DNA of 64,000 nt from Verrucomicrobiota bacterium (lineage in GTDB: Bacteria > Verrucomicrobiota > Verrucomicrobiia > Opitutales > UBA2995), in contig JAQBYJ010000011.1 in assembly GCA_027622555.1 (NCBI GenBank), forward strand, positions 1 through 64,000, written 5' to 3'. The translations under genes were made by a program, and so were the position numbers. Below, one piece after another: positions 22,290 to 63,999 of the stretch. Below the pieces are notes generated by a model. The model did no database searches, was not told the origin of the DNA, and worked only from the letters and a program-made list of their open reading frames with translations. How positions within the stretch are numbered: the stretch's first letter is position 1; each line of letters starts with the position of its first letter.

Positions 22290-23249
22290 ATGTTTCTCCT
22301 TACCAAGCCTTCGAAACTATTACTCGGCGTTTTCTGTATCCTGCTTCCTTTCGTATCCGCATGCTCAAAAGCAGAAGAAACGAAGAAGGTTCTTTTTGTG
22401 GCCGGCAAAATGAGTCACGGGTATAATTCCCATGAGCATAATGCTGGATCGCTACTCCTGGCCAAGGCATTGAATGAAAGTGATCTCGGAATAGAAGCCT
22501 CGGTATATTACAACAAAGACAATCCGGGTTGGACGATGGATGAAACGCTGCTCGAGGGAATCGACGCCGTGGTGATCTATTGCGATGGTGGCGTAAAACA
22601 TCTGGCAAACGACCATGTCGGAGCAATTGGAGCACTCAATAACACGGGTGTTGGCGTAGGTTGTCTCCATTACGGGGTTGAAACCATAGACGGTGAACCA
22701 GGTGATGGATTTCTCCGCTGGATGGGTGGGTACTTTCAACTTGGCAAATCGGTCAACCCACACTGGGTAGCTCACTTTGAGAATTTCCCCGATCATCCCG
22801 TAGCCAACGGTGTTAAGCCTTTCCACATTCAGGATGAGTGGTATTTCAACATGCGATTCCGCGATAATATGGAAGGCGTTACTCCCATTCTTACCGCCAT
22901 TCCGCCACTCGACGTAATTCCTGAAAAGGACCACCACCACAATTCTACCGCTGATGCTCGAGCTGCGGTTAAACGGCGCGATCCTCAACACATGATGTGG
23001 GTTTCTGAGAATGCCAATGGCAGCCGCGGCTTTGGTTTTACGGGCGGCCATTTCCACGACAACTGGCAGGACGATGATTTCAGGAAGGTGGTCCTCAACG
23101 CAGTTGCCTGGATAACTCATAAAAAAGTACCAGCGGGTGGAGTATCCTCCGCCACACCTACGACTGAGCAATTGAAACAAAACCAGGACTACGACGAAGA
23201 CCTGAGCAAGATTCGTAAGGACAGATACGCTGAACACATCCGGAAATAA
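22290..23249 (+). CDS. ThuA-domain lipoprotein
   Basis: This 319-residue protein begins with a lipoprotein signal whose lipobox ends FVSAC (Cys25), so it should be membrane-anchored. The rest is a ThuA domain (class-I glutamine-amidotransferase-like fold): VLFVAGKMSHGYNSHEHNAG, GIDAVVIYCDGG, GVGVGCLHYGVET, PVANGVKPFHIQDEWYFNMR, and GFTGGHFHDNW. ThuA proteins are tied to trehalose and 3-keto-disaccharide use. The downstream GMC oxidoreductase pair supports a role in oxidised sugar metabolism. The precise reaction is uncertain. Confidence 0.85.
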   Translation: MFLLTKPSKLLLGVFCILLPFVSACSKAEETKKVLFVAGKMSHGYNSHEHNAGSLLLAKALNESDLGIEASVYYNKDNPGWTMDETLLEGIDAVVIYCDGGVKHLANDHVGAIGALNNTGVGVGCLHYGVETIDGEPGDGFLRWMGGYFQLGKSVNPHWVAHFENFPDHPVANGVKPFHIQDEWYFNMRFRDNMEGVTPILTAIPPLDVIPEKDHHHNSTADARAAVKRRDPQHMMWVSENANGSRGFGFTGGHFHDNWQDDDFRKVVLNAVAWITHKKVPAGGVSSATPTTEQLKQNQDYDEDLSKIRKDRYAEHIRK

Positions 23250-23257
23250 TAGTTGGT

Positions 23258-23305
23258 GGTTCAGCGGTTCAACGGTTCAGCAGGTCAGCGGTTCAGCGGT
23301 TTGAA
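23258..23305 (+). repeat. Tandem 8-bp array GGTTCAGC (six units) before the four-helix-bundle gene
   Basis: Six consecutive 8-base units read GGTTCAGC, GGTTCAAC, GGTTCAGC, AGGTCAGC, GGTTCAGC and GGTTTGAA. The array lies between the ThuA gene and the four-helix-bundle gene, 5 bases before the latter's start. The complementary array lies directly after that gene. Confidence 0.85.
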
Positions 23306-23310
23306 TACCT

Positions 23311-23727
23311 ATGAGTATTAAACGATTCGAAGACATTGAAGGCTGGCAATTGGCACGTCAACTTACTCAACAAGTTTACAAACAAACGAACAAGGAACCG
23401 TTCTCAAAGGATTTTGGATTGAAGGACCAGATCCAGCGAGCATCCGGTTCGATCATGCACAATATTGCAGAAGGATTTGATTCCGAATCTAATCCTGAAT
23501 TCATTCGGTTTTTGAGATATTCAAAGTGCTCATGCAGTGAGGTTCAAAGCCAGTTGTATGTTGCTCTGGACAAAAAATACATTGCTCAACATGAATTTGA
23601 TTCGCTTTATGAACAAGCTCGACGCACACGGGCAGCCATCAGAGGCTTTATCAACTACCTCACAAAACATGGGCAAAGCCAATCAAACAAAACCATTCAG
23701 AAAGAAGCCCAAGAATACAGCCCTTGA
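23311..23727 (+). CDS. Four-helix-bundle protein (23S rRNA intervening-sequence / S23 family)
   Basis: This 138-residue cytoplasmic protein matches the family first found in 23S rRNA intervening sequences and related to Avd of diversity-generating retroelements. Signature segments are EDIEGWQLARQLTQQVYK, FGLKDQIQRASGSIMHNIAE, GFDSESNPEFIRFLRYSKCS, EVQSQLYVALDKKYI and an RRTRAAIRGFINYL C-terminal helix. The fold is a basic, pentamer-forming helical bundle; its function is unknown. It is tightly bracketed by complementary 7-8 bp repeat arrays at 23258-23305 and 23722-23769, suggesting that gene plus repeats is a transposable or once-mobile unit inserted between thuA and the GMC gene. Confidence 0.88.
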   Translation: MSIKRFEDIEGWQLARQLTQQVYKQTNKEPFSKDFGLKDQIQRASGSIMHNIAEGFDSESNPEFIRFLRYSKCSCSEVQSQLYVALDKKYIAQHEFDSLYEQARRTRAAIRGFINYLTKHGQSQSNKTIQKEAQEYSP

Positions 23728-23769
23728 CCCCATGAACCCGGAACCGATGAACCGTGAACCCTTGAACCC
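23722..23769 (+). repeat. Tandem TGAACC array after the four-helix-bundle gene
   Basis: Starting at the stop codon, units of 7-8 bases read CCTTGACC, CATGAACC, CGGAACC, GATGAACC, GTGAACC and CTTGAACC. Each ends in GAACC, the complement of the GGTTC in the upstream array, so the two arrays could pair across the gene or serve as inverted ends. Confidence 0.8.
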
Positions 23770-23789
23770 AATTTAACCTATTTAGACTC

Positions 23790-25592
23790 ATGCCGCATAT
23801 AAACGCAGGTAAAACGAAACCCGAATACGATGTCATCATTGTTGGCTCCGGCGCAGCTGGAGGCCAGACTGCTTACACTTTAGCCATGGAGGGCGTTAAA
23901 GTTCTCATGCTCGAAGCAGGACGTAACTACGACCCGGTGACTGAGACACCCATGTTTAATACGCCTGAGATGGCACCGTTACGTGGCCAAAGTACCCCGG
24001 GAAAACCATTTGGTTATTATGACGCCACAGTTGATGGAGGTTGGAAGGTTCCTGGTGAACCCTACACCAATGCCACGACTAAACCAGAAGAGGAATTCAT
24101 GTGGTGGCGGGCCCGCATGCTGGGAGGTCGAACAAACCATTGGGGACGTATCTCGTTGCGCAATGGGCCCTATGATTTCAAGCCCTACTCACGGGACGGA
24201 TTGGGATTTGATTGGCCCCTATCCTATGAAGATGTTGCTCCGTACTATGACCGGGTCGAATCGCTTATTGGGGTATACGGTTCAAACGAAGGGATGGAGA
24301 ACACACCGAATTCTCCGGACGGCGTACTACTGCCGCCACCTAAAGCCAGAGCAGCAGAATTATATGCCCGCAAACACGCAAAAAAGATTGGAGTTCCAAT
24401 TGTGCCCATTCACCGCGCTGTTTTAAGCACCACGCTGAATTCGAAAAAAATCCCTAAGAGCCTTCACCCGAACAATCCAAGAGCCCAGCAAATCCTGGCT
24501 CAGGAAATGGACCAACGTCTCGCCTGCTTCTGGGCTACCAGTTGTGGTCGTGGGTGCTCAACAAAAGCCAATTACCAATCGACCACGGTTCATTTGCCCC
24601 CTGCCCTGGCAACGGGAAACTTGGACATTATTACCAATGCCATGGTACGGGTCGTTGAAACCGATAGTTCAGGTAAAGCGACTGGTGTAAATTTTATCGA
24701 AAGAAACACCAAGAAAGATTTTAGCGTCAAAGGCCGTATAGTTGTTCTGGCGGCCAGCTCACTTGAGTCCGTACGTATCATGCTCAATTCTCAGAGTTTC
24801 CATCATCCCGATGGTGTGGGCAATTCAAGTGGTTTAGTTGGGAAGTACATTATGGATACGGTTGGGGCACGGGTATCAGGTCACGTTCCGGCACTTGAAG
24901 GCTTGCCTCCACACAATGAGGACGGCGCAGGTGGAGCACACGTCTATGCGCCTTGGTGGCTCTATCAGGAACAAGCAGCTGGGAAACTGGACTTCCCAAG
25001 AGGTTATCATATCGAAACAGGTGGCACCCGAGGAGAACCAAGTGTCGGATCTTTTAACGGACTGGAGCATTTGACTAAAGGCGCTTACGGGAAACGTCTC
25101 AAAGACGAGGCCCGCAGGTACTATGGTTCATTCGTGGGATACTCCGGTCGGGGTGAAATGATTCCAAACGAAAATTCATATGCTGAAATTGACCGGGAGG
25201 TAAAAGACAAATGGGGTATTCCAGTTCTCAAGTTTCACTGGCAATGGGCCGATCACGAAATCCGGCAAGCAGCCCACATGCATAAAATTTTTGCCGAAAT
25301 TATTATTGAACAAGGAGGAACTGTCACCAGCACCCTCGATCCAACAGGAAAAAAGGGCATATACCGAGGTGGAGAAATTATCCACGAAGTTGGCGGAACC
25401 ATCATGGGTGAAGATAAAAAGACCTCAGTGACCAACCAATATATGCAAACATGGGATGTGAAGAATCTGTTCATTACGGATGGTGGACCCTTCTGCTCCA
25501 ATGCTGATAAAAATCCGACCCTCACAATCATGGCGCTGGCCTGGAGATCAGCCGATTACATGATGAACGAAATGAAGAAAGGAAACATTTAA
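23790..25592 (+). CDS. GMC-family FAD-dependent sugar/alcohol oxidoreductase
   Basis: This 600-residue protein is a GMC oxidoreductase large subunit. The FAD-binding GSGAAGG motif is at residues 19-25. RMLGGRTNHWG follows, as in gluconate/fructose dehydrogenase-like enzymes. The C-terminal HEVGGTIMG and NADKNPTLTIMALAWRSADY carry the conserved active-site region. It has no signal peptide of its own; such subunits are often exported with a Tat-signal-bearing partner. That partner is the next gene, whose ATG overlaps this stop (TAATG). Family members oxidise sugars or polyols, here plausibly at carbon 3, as an inference from ThuA and DUF1080 proteins nearby. Confidence 0.93.
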   Translation: MPHINAGKTKPEYDVIIVGSGAAGGQTAYTLAMEGVKVLMLEAGRNYDPVTETPMFNTPEMAPLRGQSTPGKPFGYYDATVDGGWKVPGEPYTNATTKPEEEFMWWRARMLGGRTNHWGRISLRNGPYDFKPYSRDGLGFDWPLSYEDVAPYYDRVESLIGVYGSNEGMENTPNSPDGVLLPPPKARAAELYARKHAKKIGVPIVPIHRAVLSTTLNSKKIPKSLHPNNPRAQQILAQEMDQRLACFWATSCGRGCSTKANYQSTTVHLPPALATGNLDIITNAMVRVVETDSSGKATGVNFIERNTKKDFSVKGRIVVLAASSLESVRIMLNSQSFHHPDGVGNSSGLVGKYIMDTVGARVSGHVPALEGLPPHNEDGAGGAHVYAPWWLYQEQAAGKLDFPRGYHIETGGTRGEPSVGSFNGLEHLTKGAYGKRLKDEARRYYGSFVGYSGRGEMIPNENSYAEIDREVKDKWGIPVLKFHWQWADHEIRQAAHMHKIFAEIIIEQGGTVTSTLDPTGKKGIYRGGEIIHEVGGTIMGEDKKTSVTNQYMQTWDVKNLFITDGGPFCSNADKNPTLTIMALAWRSADYMMNEMKKGNI

Positions 25593-26242
25593 TGAAAGCC
25601 AACTTTTCCCACAATCGTATGGACAGAAGGTCCGCCTTAAAATGGATGTTGGCCGCATCTGCAACTGTCCACTTCCTGAACACTAAATCCTTTGGCCAGG
25701 AAACAGATCCTTTACTCAAAGGATTTGGCACTGATCCGGATTTGCTAAAAGGCGAAGTTCCTTGGGACCGAACAATGACCGCAGATCAATTACGGACGAC
25801 TTCGACCTTATCTGACATCATCCTCCCGCATACAAGCGAAGAGTCTCCAAGTGCGACCGAAGTTCATGTACCCGATTTTATTGATGAATGGATCAGCGCA
25901 CCCTACGACGAGCAACAAGAGGATGCTAAGATAATAATTGAAGGACTCGCCTGGCTCGACCGTGAATCGCAACGACGCTTTTCCCAGGACTTCTATCAAT
26001 TAAATGAAACTCAGCAAACCAGCATCTGTGATGATATATGTTTTCAAGAAGAAGCCTTACCAGAATATCAAGTTGGGGCTCGTTTCTTTACAAAGTTTCG
26101 CAACCTGACCCTTGGAGGATATTACACAACCAACGTAGGCATGAAAGACGTCGGTTACGTAGGAAATGTTGCATTGGCCGCATTCGACGGCCCACCTCCG
26201 GAAGTGCTAAAGCAGCTCGGAATCGACAAAGCTCCCTGGTAA
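25592..26242 (+). CDS. Gluconate 2-dehydrogenase subunit 3 family protein
   Basis: This 216-residue small subunit has an RR-containing N-terminal signal (DRRSALKWMLAASATVHFLN), probably used to export the folded complex by Tat. The rest is the helical gluconate 2-dehydrogenase subunit 3 domain (TLSDIILPHT, VPDFIDEWIS, GLAWLDRESQRRF, FFTKFRNLTLGGYYTTNVGM). It starts one base inside the stop of the GMC gene, indicating translational coupling, and should form the dehydrogenase with it. Confidence 0.9.
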   Translation: MKANFSHNRMDRRSALKWMLAASATVHFLNTKSFGQETDPLLKGFGTDPDLLKGEVPWDRTMTADQLRTTSTLSDIILPHTSEESPSATEVHVPDFIDEWISAPYDEQQEDAKIIIEGLAWLDRESQRRFSQDFYQLNETQQTSICDDICFQEEALPEYQVGARFFTKFRNLTLGGYYTTNVGMKDVGYVGNVALAAFDGPPPEVLKQLGIDKAPW

Positions 26243-62934: not shown

Positions 62935-63999
62935 TCAATATCTTCGATTCTTCCTTCGACCGTATCCCTTGGAGCTCTTGGTATTAGAAGGTGAGGAGTC
63001 TTTGCCGGATCTAAGAAGAGAAATTTGATCACGGAGTAATGCCGCGCGTTCGAACTCCAGGCTCTCTGCCGCCTGAAGCATTTCTATCTCCATTTCGGCA
63101 ATGACTTGTTTGCGCTCATCCGTTCCGAGCGCTTCAGCAACCAGATTCGATTTTTCTTCCTTCCCTTTGTAAATGAGACTGGACTGGATGCCGCGACGAA
63201 TACTTGTAGGAATAATCCCATGCTCCGTATTATAAGCCTCCTGCCGTTCTCTTCTGTAAGCAGTCACTTCGATCGTTTTCTGAATGGAGTCATTCATTTT
63301 ATCCGCATACAAAATGACACGGCCTTTTTCATGACGTGCAGCACGGCCGGCGGTTTGCACCAAGCTGGTGTAATTTCTTAAAAAACCTTCTTTGTCTGCA
63401 TCCAGGATGGCGACCAAAGCTACTTCCGGAAGATCAAGGCCTTCACGCAAAAGATTTACCCCAACCAAAACATCAAAATCGCCGGACCGAAGACGTCGCA
63501 GTATTTCAATACGTTCAACAGCATCGATGTCGGAGTGAAGATACTCAACGCGCACCTTTGCTTCGCGAAAAAACGTGGTCAGATCTTCAGACATGCGTTT
63601 GGTTAAGGTCGTTACCAGGACCCGTTCCTTTTGATCGACGGCCAATTTGATTTCTCCAATCAAATCCTCCACCTGCCCCTTGGTGGATCGGAGCTCCATA
63701 ATGGGATCCAATAAACCGGTTGGTCGTATGATCTGTTCTGCGACTACAGCGGAATTCTGCATTTCAAATGGCCGTGGCGTAGCGGAAACAAACAGAACCT
63801 GTTTGGCCAAAGCCATAAACTCTTCCATGCTCATGGGACGATTGTCCATTGCAGACGGCAGGCGAAATCCATGTTCCACCAGGGTGGTTTTACGTGATCG
63901 GTCACCTTCATACATTCCACCAATTTGTGGTAACGAAACATGACTCTCATCCAGGATGATCAATAAATCGTCCGGGAAAAAATCAATCAGACAAAACGG
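62935..63999 (-). CDS. uvrB: UvrABC excinuclease subunit B, 3' part (5' end outside window)
   Basis: The frame is open from the window edge (63999) to the stop at 62935, giving the C-terminal 354 residues of UvrB, the damage-verifying subunit of nucleotide excision repair. Visible are helicase motif II (LLIILDESHVSLPQIGGMY), the signature SATPRPFEM, motif V/VI blocks (VGVNLLREGLDLPEVALVAI, TSLVQTAGRAARHEKGRVIL), and the C-terminal UVR motif (EMLQAAESLEFERAALLRDQ) that contacts UvrC. The protein ends in a basic tail (RRKNRRY). The ATPase Walker A part lies beyond the window. Confidence 0.96.
   Translation of the reverse strand, partial: PFCLIDFFPDDLLIILDESHVSLPQIGGMYEGDRSRKTTLVEHGFRLPSAMDNRPMSMEEFMALAKQVLFVSATPRPFEMQNSAVVAEQIIRPTGLLDPIMELRSTKGQVEDLIGEIKLAVDQKERVLVTTLTKRMSEDLTTFFREAKVRVEYLHSDIDAVERIEILRRLRSGDFDVLVGVNLLREGLDLPEVALVAILDADKEGFLRNYTSLVQTAGRAARHEKGRVILYADKMNDSIQKTIEVTAYRRERQEAYNTEHGIIPTSIRRGIQSSLIYKGKEEKSNLVAEALGTDERKQVIAEMEIEMLQAAESLEFERAALLRDQISLLRSGKDSSPSNTKSSKGYGRRKNRRY

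Follow-up and report, generated by a model that had tools for sequence, protein, structure and literature searches.

A gene of the 23S rRNA intervening-sequence protein family between complementary 7-8 bp arrays in an operon gap: a probable cassette with armed relatives in many phyla

Described systems and the window locus

The closest described counterpart of the locus reported here is the intervening sequence (IVS) in the 23S rRNA of Coxiella burnetii, which encodes an S23p protein, has complementary ends that are cut by RNase III and carries tandem GACAGAT heptamers just upstream of its open reading frame (PMC4990558). Heptameric repeats are also known in their own right. The GGGNATC repeats of Xanthomonas and Nostoc are intergenic, with about 70 convergent inverted pairs in Xanthomonas, and neither a link to mobile elements nor a gene partner was reported for them (PMC4692102). 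For the TAACTGA repeats of Beggiatoaceae no mechanism was evident and no gene partner was reported (PMC4679880). The locus brings together two questions, namely the role of the very common S23p/IVP four-helix-bundle proteins and the origin of the heptameric repeats that are over-represented in bacteria. A search of open-licence papers returned no description of a link between ivp genes and heptamers as a general pattern.

The window is a stretch of 64,000 nt of DNA from a Verrucomicrobiota bacterium (genome G000; other genomes, contigs and loci are given as G, C and L numbers). In it, a 138-aa ivp gene, reading from ATG to TGA, stands in a row with thuA and a GMC oxidoreductase gene, in the gap between the two and in the same orientation (Table 1). 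Profile searches assigned its product to the intervening-sequence family with 114.4 bits for PF05635 (cut-off 33.8, E = 3.5e-33) and 110.3 bits for TIGR02436 (cut-off 24, E = 5.4e-32). A solved homologue is 2gsc (E = 3.6e-13), which is XCC0516 of Xanthomonas campestris. Upstream of the gene, GGTTCAGC-type units are repeated in tandem at 23258-23301 with a period of 8 and 5.5 copies (TRF score 67), and a degenerate sixth unit (GGTTTGAA) carries the array to 23305. The units therefore do end 5 bases before the start codon, as a preliminary description of this DNA had it. The downstream array consists of mixed 7-8 bp TGAACC-type units, has the stop codon inside it and is weaker as a tandem repeat (TRF score 44-54). 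The complementarity of the 250-bp flanks scored 15.5, which none of 3,000 dinucleotide-preserving shuffles reached (best 14.5), and the self-match of the 5′ flank at lag 8 was 0.65 compared with a shuffle maximum of 0.51. The central claim of that description, a gene enclosed by complementary 7-8 bp arrays, is thus borne out. In the minimum free energy fold of the sense strand the arms are paired around the gene. The ends of this copy are AATAGTTGGTGGTTCAG and CCCAATTTAACC, not the GTAA...TTAC termini seen in relatives, and no 8-bp target-site duplication was found at them. IS66 genes occur in the same genome on other contigs.

Table 1. Coordinates of the cassette and its neighbours in the window
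Feature	Position	Strand	Description and basis
5′ arm	23258..23305	+	Units of ~8 bp, GGTTCAGC type, six with the last degenerate; TRF, lag-8 self-match
ivp gene	23311..23727	+	138-aa four-helix-bundle protein of the 23S rRNA intervening-sequence family (S23p); PF05635, TIGR02436, 2gsc
3′ arm	23721..23770	+	TGAACC-type tandem units complementary to the 5′ arm, including the stop codon; TRF, inverted pairs I3-I10
Whole cassette	23253..23772	+	About 510-520 bp, limits approximate, no target duplication visible; arms, gene and fold
Upstream ThuA-family gene (outside the element)	22290..23249	+	PF06283; stop codon at 23249; orthologues served the junction comparison
Downstream GMC oxidoreductase gene (outside the element)	23790..25592	+	PF00732/PF05199; start at 23790
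Gluconate 2-dehydrogenase subunit 3 gene, after the GMC gene (outside the element)	25592-26242		PF13618

The unit resembles the 23S rRNA IVS in its protein family, in its size (about 430-500 nt), in having its reading frame within complementary ends that are able to form a long stem, and in that both are suspected to be selfish elements. It differs in lying between the protein genes of an operon, thuA and GMC, and not inside a 23S rRNA gene. Furthermore, both arms of the ivp cassette are arrays of 7-8-mers, and in relatives target duplications and deleted copies document that the cassette has moved. In our best reading, the IVS-type cassette, so far reported mainly from 23S rRNA, also rides in operons, and the window feature is quite probably one copy of such a selfish, heptamer-armed cassette. 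The cassette consists of a 5′ array, the ivp gene and a 3′ array that complements the first, spanning about 450-550 bp in all. It would enter short gaps between co-transcribed genes along the direction of transcription, and would have its gene expressed from the host operon. Gene and arms would be inherited and transferred jointly across phyla while the arm sequence drifts, with complementarity being kept by DNA-level correction between the inverted arms, by selection on a paired structure, or by both. The most likely role of IVP would be to aid spread or tolerance of the cassette by binding the arms of its own element, in the form of either DNA or RNA.

Complementary arms and their variation across ivp loci

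We collected 131 ivp loci, some from the order to which the window belongs and the rest from named genomes that span many phyla. Complementary 5′ and 3′ flanks (score of at least 14) were found at 72 of the 122 ivp genes with enough flanking sequence, compared with none of 83 neighbouring ORFs from the same loci and 0.2% of shuffles; the named genomes were picked by closeness to the window protein, and the loci are partly non-independent. The self-match at lag 7 was 0.43 and 0.40 in the ivp flanks and 0.26 and 0.29 in the controls, with harmonics at 14 and 21. Clear arms are missing from about 40% of the ivp genes tested. Many of the sequences come from short-read MAGs, whose repeats may be collapsed.

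The units vary from element to element (GGTTCAG, GGTGTCA, GGCACAAA, TTAAAGC and others), and the two arms within one element stay complementary. There are seven ivp genes in the window's genome, with flanking complementary arrays of other units: GGTGTCA, GAGGGAC-type and ACGAAGA-type. Copies on cyanobacterial plasmids are also armed (TAGGGAG, GGGAAAA, GGGTGTA, AGCTAAA), as is a Riemerella copy (GGTTYAA). Compared by description, these arrays share 7-bp tandem units and a mostly intergenic location with the published heptameric repeats of Xanthomonas/Nostoc and Beggiatoaceae and with the cyanobacterial STRRs; they differ in being tied to ivp genes, cyanobacterial plasmids included. Individual loci show further features. 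On the Pseudanabaena galeata plasmid pPg_01 (L288, 1001-1360), a heptamer-armed ivp lies between cas6 and cas4. Contig C74 of the window's genome carries two ivp genes with GTGTCAG-type arrays at 16.4 and 21.5 kb (L003, L006), each upstream of a similar sulfatase-like gene; in L006 the gene is truncated and the 3′ arm lost. In a Syntrophaceae UBA4059 locus (L085), the GGTTCA arrays flanking ivp are broken by repeated CACCACCTGAAGGTGGCAGGCGGTTCA units that are partly palindromic themselves.

The two arms of an element appear to change together. When all 122 3′ flanks were ranked by their fit to a given 5′ flank, the element's own 3′ flank came first in 25 loci and within the top 5% in 62, although a GTTC-type unit is common to many loci. 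At the orthologous pair L076/L078, whose flanks are 78% identical, own-arm scores were 21.5 and 26.5, and cross scores were 8.5 and 9.5. Likewise, both arms of the cassette between atpA and atpG read TTAAAGA in G103 and TTAAAGC in G057 and G043. Sense-type and antisense-type G.U mismatches between arms were about equally frequent (63 vs 59, p = 0.79), so that selection on the sense RNA is not visibly what keeps the arms complementary. Such parity would be expected if the inverted arms corrected each other at the DNA level.

The arms also follow the protein. Among locus pairs from different phyla, mean arm similarity was 13.9 at IVP identities of at least 65% and 4.6 at 25-35%; the similarity is oriented, the value for the opposite orientation being 4.4. 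The window gene and L082 share GGTTCA units even though they have diverged to saturation at synonymous sites (pS 0.94). Taken together, these observations argue that the sequence of the arm unit follows the protein clade, and IVP may recognise its own unit.

Movement and residence of the cassette in relatives

Cassettes that are 80-91% identical (up to 93%) were found at sites whose flanks show no detectable similarity (L086, L088, L092, L097, L091, L082, L123), and G205 has dozens of copies, most of which have lost the middle but kept both ends. Both GTAACTACTCAGG-type termini are present in 29 copies, and nine of these are flanked by an exact repeat of at least 7 bp, compared with 0.25% of mismatched pairs. 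The repeat is exactly 8 bp in six copies (CACTTCTC, AAAAGATT, GTTAAATC, AATTATAG, ATTATAAA and AAATCATG) and in none of the mismatched pairs. A second cluster has the ends GTARSCGTTCAC and the duplications AGCTATGT (L101) and CATTTTTT (L146). GTAA...TTAC termini are present in L086, L091, L092, L097, L101, L146 and others, and the two different GTAA-ended clusters both bear ivp. The dN/dS values of the mobile cluster, 0.09-0.16, point to purifying selection that keeps the IVP protein functional. That gene and arms move as one cassette within the family is a well-supported reading of these sequence comparisons.

Ends of the GTAA...TTAC type and 8-bp duplications are hallmarks of IS66. Indeed, we saw an 8-bp duplication at an IS66 (L276), and an IS66 copy in G210 (L280) has the same 14-nt end as the cassettes of Desulfobacterota. 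Given these ends, the duplications and the end shared with L280, the likely mover in the Desulfobacterota lineage is an IS66 transposase that acts in trans and would leave the 8-bp target duplications behind; no IS66 was detected in G205, a MAG that may be incomplete. The likeness to IS66 and its MITEs concerns those cassettes; the window copy has neither the termini nor the duplication, and where an IS66 carries tnpABC the cassette has ivp with heptamer arms. The idea that the arrays serve as the ends of the unit holds anatomically. Where termini could be resolved, however, the arrays lie just inside the IS66-type ends, so that the transposase may act at a site other than the array. A generic search for target duplications over all armed loci gave no excess. 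When terminal complementarity was made a condition, 8-bp repeats occurred at 7 of 125 loci against 0.8 expected, only four GTAA/GTAG-ended loci being convincing. Beyond the GTAA-ended lineage, such duplications did not exceed chance.

The gap between thuA and GMC holds three distinct IVP lineages within one genus. The window lineage has its nearest relatives in Desulfobacterota, Myxococcota and Elusimicrobia (a clade of 18 rows, 98%). In the same gap G003 has an antisense ivp pseudogene, and G001, G004 and G005 have a divergent, armless type of IVP, the arms of which are gone or never existed. The only empty gap is that of G007, from a sister genus. The thuA-GMC gap is therefore a repeated target. 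The junction comparison proposed in the preliminary description thus gave an empty site only outside the genus, the same-genus relatives carrying other IVP lineages. That description also claimed present or past mobility of the whole unit, which is upheld for the family by the unrelated flanks, the filled and empty gap, the 8-bp duplications and the deleted copies; for the window copy we infer mobility from these relatives.

Seventy armed elements had readable neighbours on both sides, and 56 of them are oriented along both neighbours and three opposed to both. An exception to the rule is L287 on the Nostoc edaphicum plasmid pNe_5 (1001-1369), a TAGGGAG-armed ivp between ribonucleotide reductase genes that runs opposite to both. 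In five genomes of one genus the atpA-atpG gap is 467-491 bp long and contains the cassette. In a sixth (G186) it measures 27 bp, and most of the other members of the family that we examined have 20-43 bp; in G145 it holds a gene-less array pair (209 bp). The 27-bp gap contains a short AAAGC...GCTTT inverted repeat and is thus possibly a deletion remnant and not a site that was never filled.

Elsewhere the cassette is a stable resident, as armed loci in the series L112-L151 share their flanks over long distances. A GTTCTTG-armed ivp cassette at L112, L113, L114, L125, L132, L141, L143 and L151, with hosts in Planctomycetes and Verrucomicrobia, has flanks that are 72-95% identical. By Pfam, the neighbours are a planctomycete cytochrome/DUF1592 gene upstream and a DUF1552 gene downstream. 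An rRNA identity of the shared 3.3-kb flanks was considered and rejected, as Rfam gave no match and Pfam identified protein genes.

Gene-less arrays and alternative explanations

Arrays also occur without the gene. A search for further array copies, as the preliminary description had suggested, found GGTTCA arrays without ivp on C18, C47, C61 and C68 of the window's genome, and none with the reversed control pattern. Across 778 kb of G145, tandem arrays with a score of at least 14 numbered 21 at lag 7 and 0-1 at lags 5, 8, 10, 11 and 13 (lags divisible by 3 reflect coding). The same sequence contains 19 inverted array pairs, some of them overlapping and mostly 25-145 bp apart, about 15 of which have no ivp gene. 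With so many arm arrays lacking the gene, an array can evidently persist without ivp. It is conceivable, though we hold it as a doubtful extension, that IVP and heptamer arrays form an unrecognised mobile class, in which IVP would recognise its own unit and help to mobilise cassettes and gene-less hairpins in trans, making it the source of heptameric repeats across bacteria. In form only, a small protein gene with dispersed related gene-less hairpins in one genome is reminiscent of REPIN/RAYT. The ivp arm units differ from these in being tandem heptamers that vary between elements, and IVP, in contrast with RAYT, is not known to be a Y1 transposase. Heptamer arrays are cassette arms of ivp in many phyla, their complementarity is kept as the sequence changes, and the cassette appears to move. 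Such a link may offer an origin for the seven-base repeats of many bacteria. In this view the IVS of 23S rRNA would be one of the places where a far wider family of elements inserts.

Other explanations can be given for the same arrangement. The arms might pair in the polycistronic mRNA and let RNase III cut the stem and release the ivp segment, as with the 23S rRNA IVS, so that an operon insertion is tolerated. The strong co-orientation within operons, the paired arms in the fold of the sense strand and the Coxiella IVS, in which heptamers adjoin the reading frame and RNase III cuts in the stem (PMC4990558), all speak for such an RNA stem, which the preliminary description had also raised. 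Co-orientation is equally expected, however, if ivp merely needs operon transcription, and the arm mismatches hold no excess of sense-strand G.U pairs. The stem is therefore a reasonable possibility that lacks specific support from the mismatches, and we place it somewhat short of even odds. It is unlikely that ivp is a passenger caught by chance between arrays, the mobile part being an IS66-type MITE or a slippage-prone heptamer array. A passenger would fit with the common gene-less inverted arrays of G145 and, in the lineage whose movement is proven, with the IS66-type termini and the duplications of 8 bp. Among genes of the same loci, however, arms are specific to ivp; they match the IVP clade across phyla, and the gene is under purifying selection and is found in both GTAA-ended clusters.

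A regulatory role, in which IVP binds the arrays as operator sites and controls transcription of its own gene or of the thuA-GMC operon, would agree with a 5′ arm that adjoins the start codon and with units that follow the IVP clade. It fails to explain why there is a complementary 3′ arm, why both arms move together and why inverted pairs exist without the gene, and we consider it rather improbable. Least credible by far is that ivp is an Avd gene and the arrays are part of a diversity-generating retroelement (DGR). IVP and Avd have a common fold (PMC10053308), the four-helix bundle, which in solved relatives forms a pentamer according to the literature, and to this extent the parallel drawn in the preliminary description is correct. 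Beyond the fold it fails, as no reverse transcriptase, TR or VR was found with the window gene: the single reverse-transcriptase match in the genome is partial and lies on another contig (C133), and a TR/VR-like repeat pair was not seen in 22900-24100. We therefore rejected DGR membership of the window gene. Against the reading of the window feature as a selfish IVS-type cassette stand its missing target duplication and the lack of excess duplications beyond the GTAA-ended lineage, the ivp genes with no clear arms (those in the thuA-GMC gap of G001, G004 and G005 among them), the arrays that persist without ivp, and the armed loci that have stayed resident with their flanks.

Two further observations concern gene-less arrays. 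On contig C18 of the window's genome, a long one-armed GAACC array (L165, about 1484-1633) fills the intergenic gap between genes that, by eye, encode two NADH-dehydrogenase-like subunits. G145 contains families of gene-less hairpins made of inverted heptamer arrays, several copies per genome, with units such as GTTTTCGG and AGGTTTCAGG (L292-L331); examples are C3:184241-184328, C6:30065-30176 and a C5 fragment at 62979-63107.
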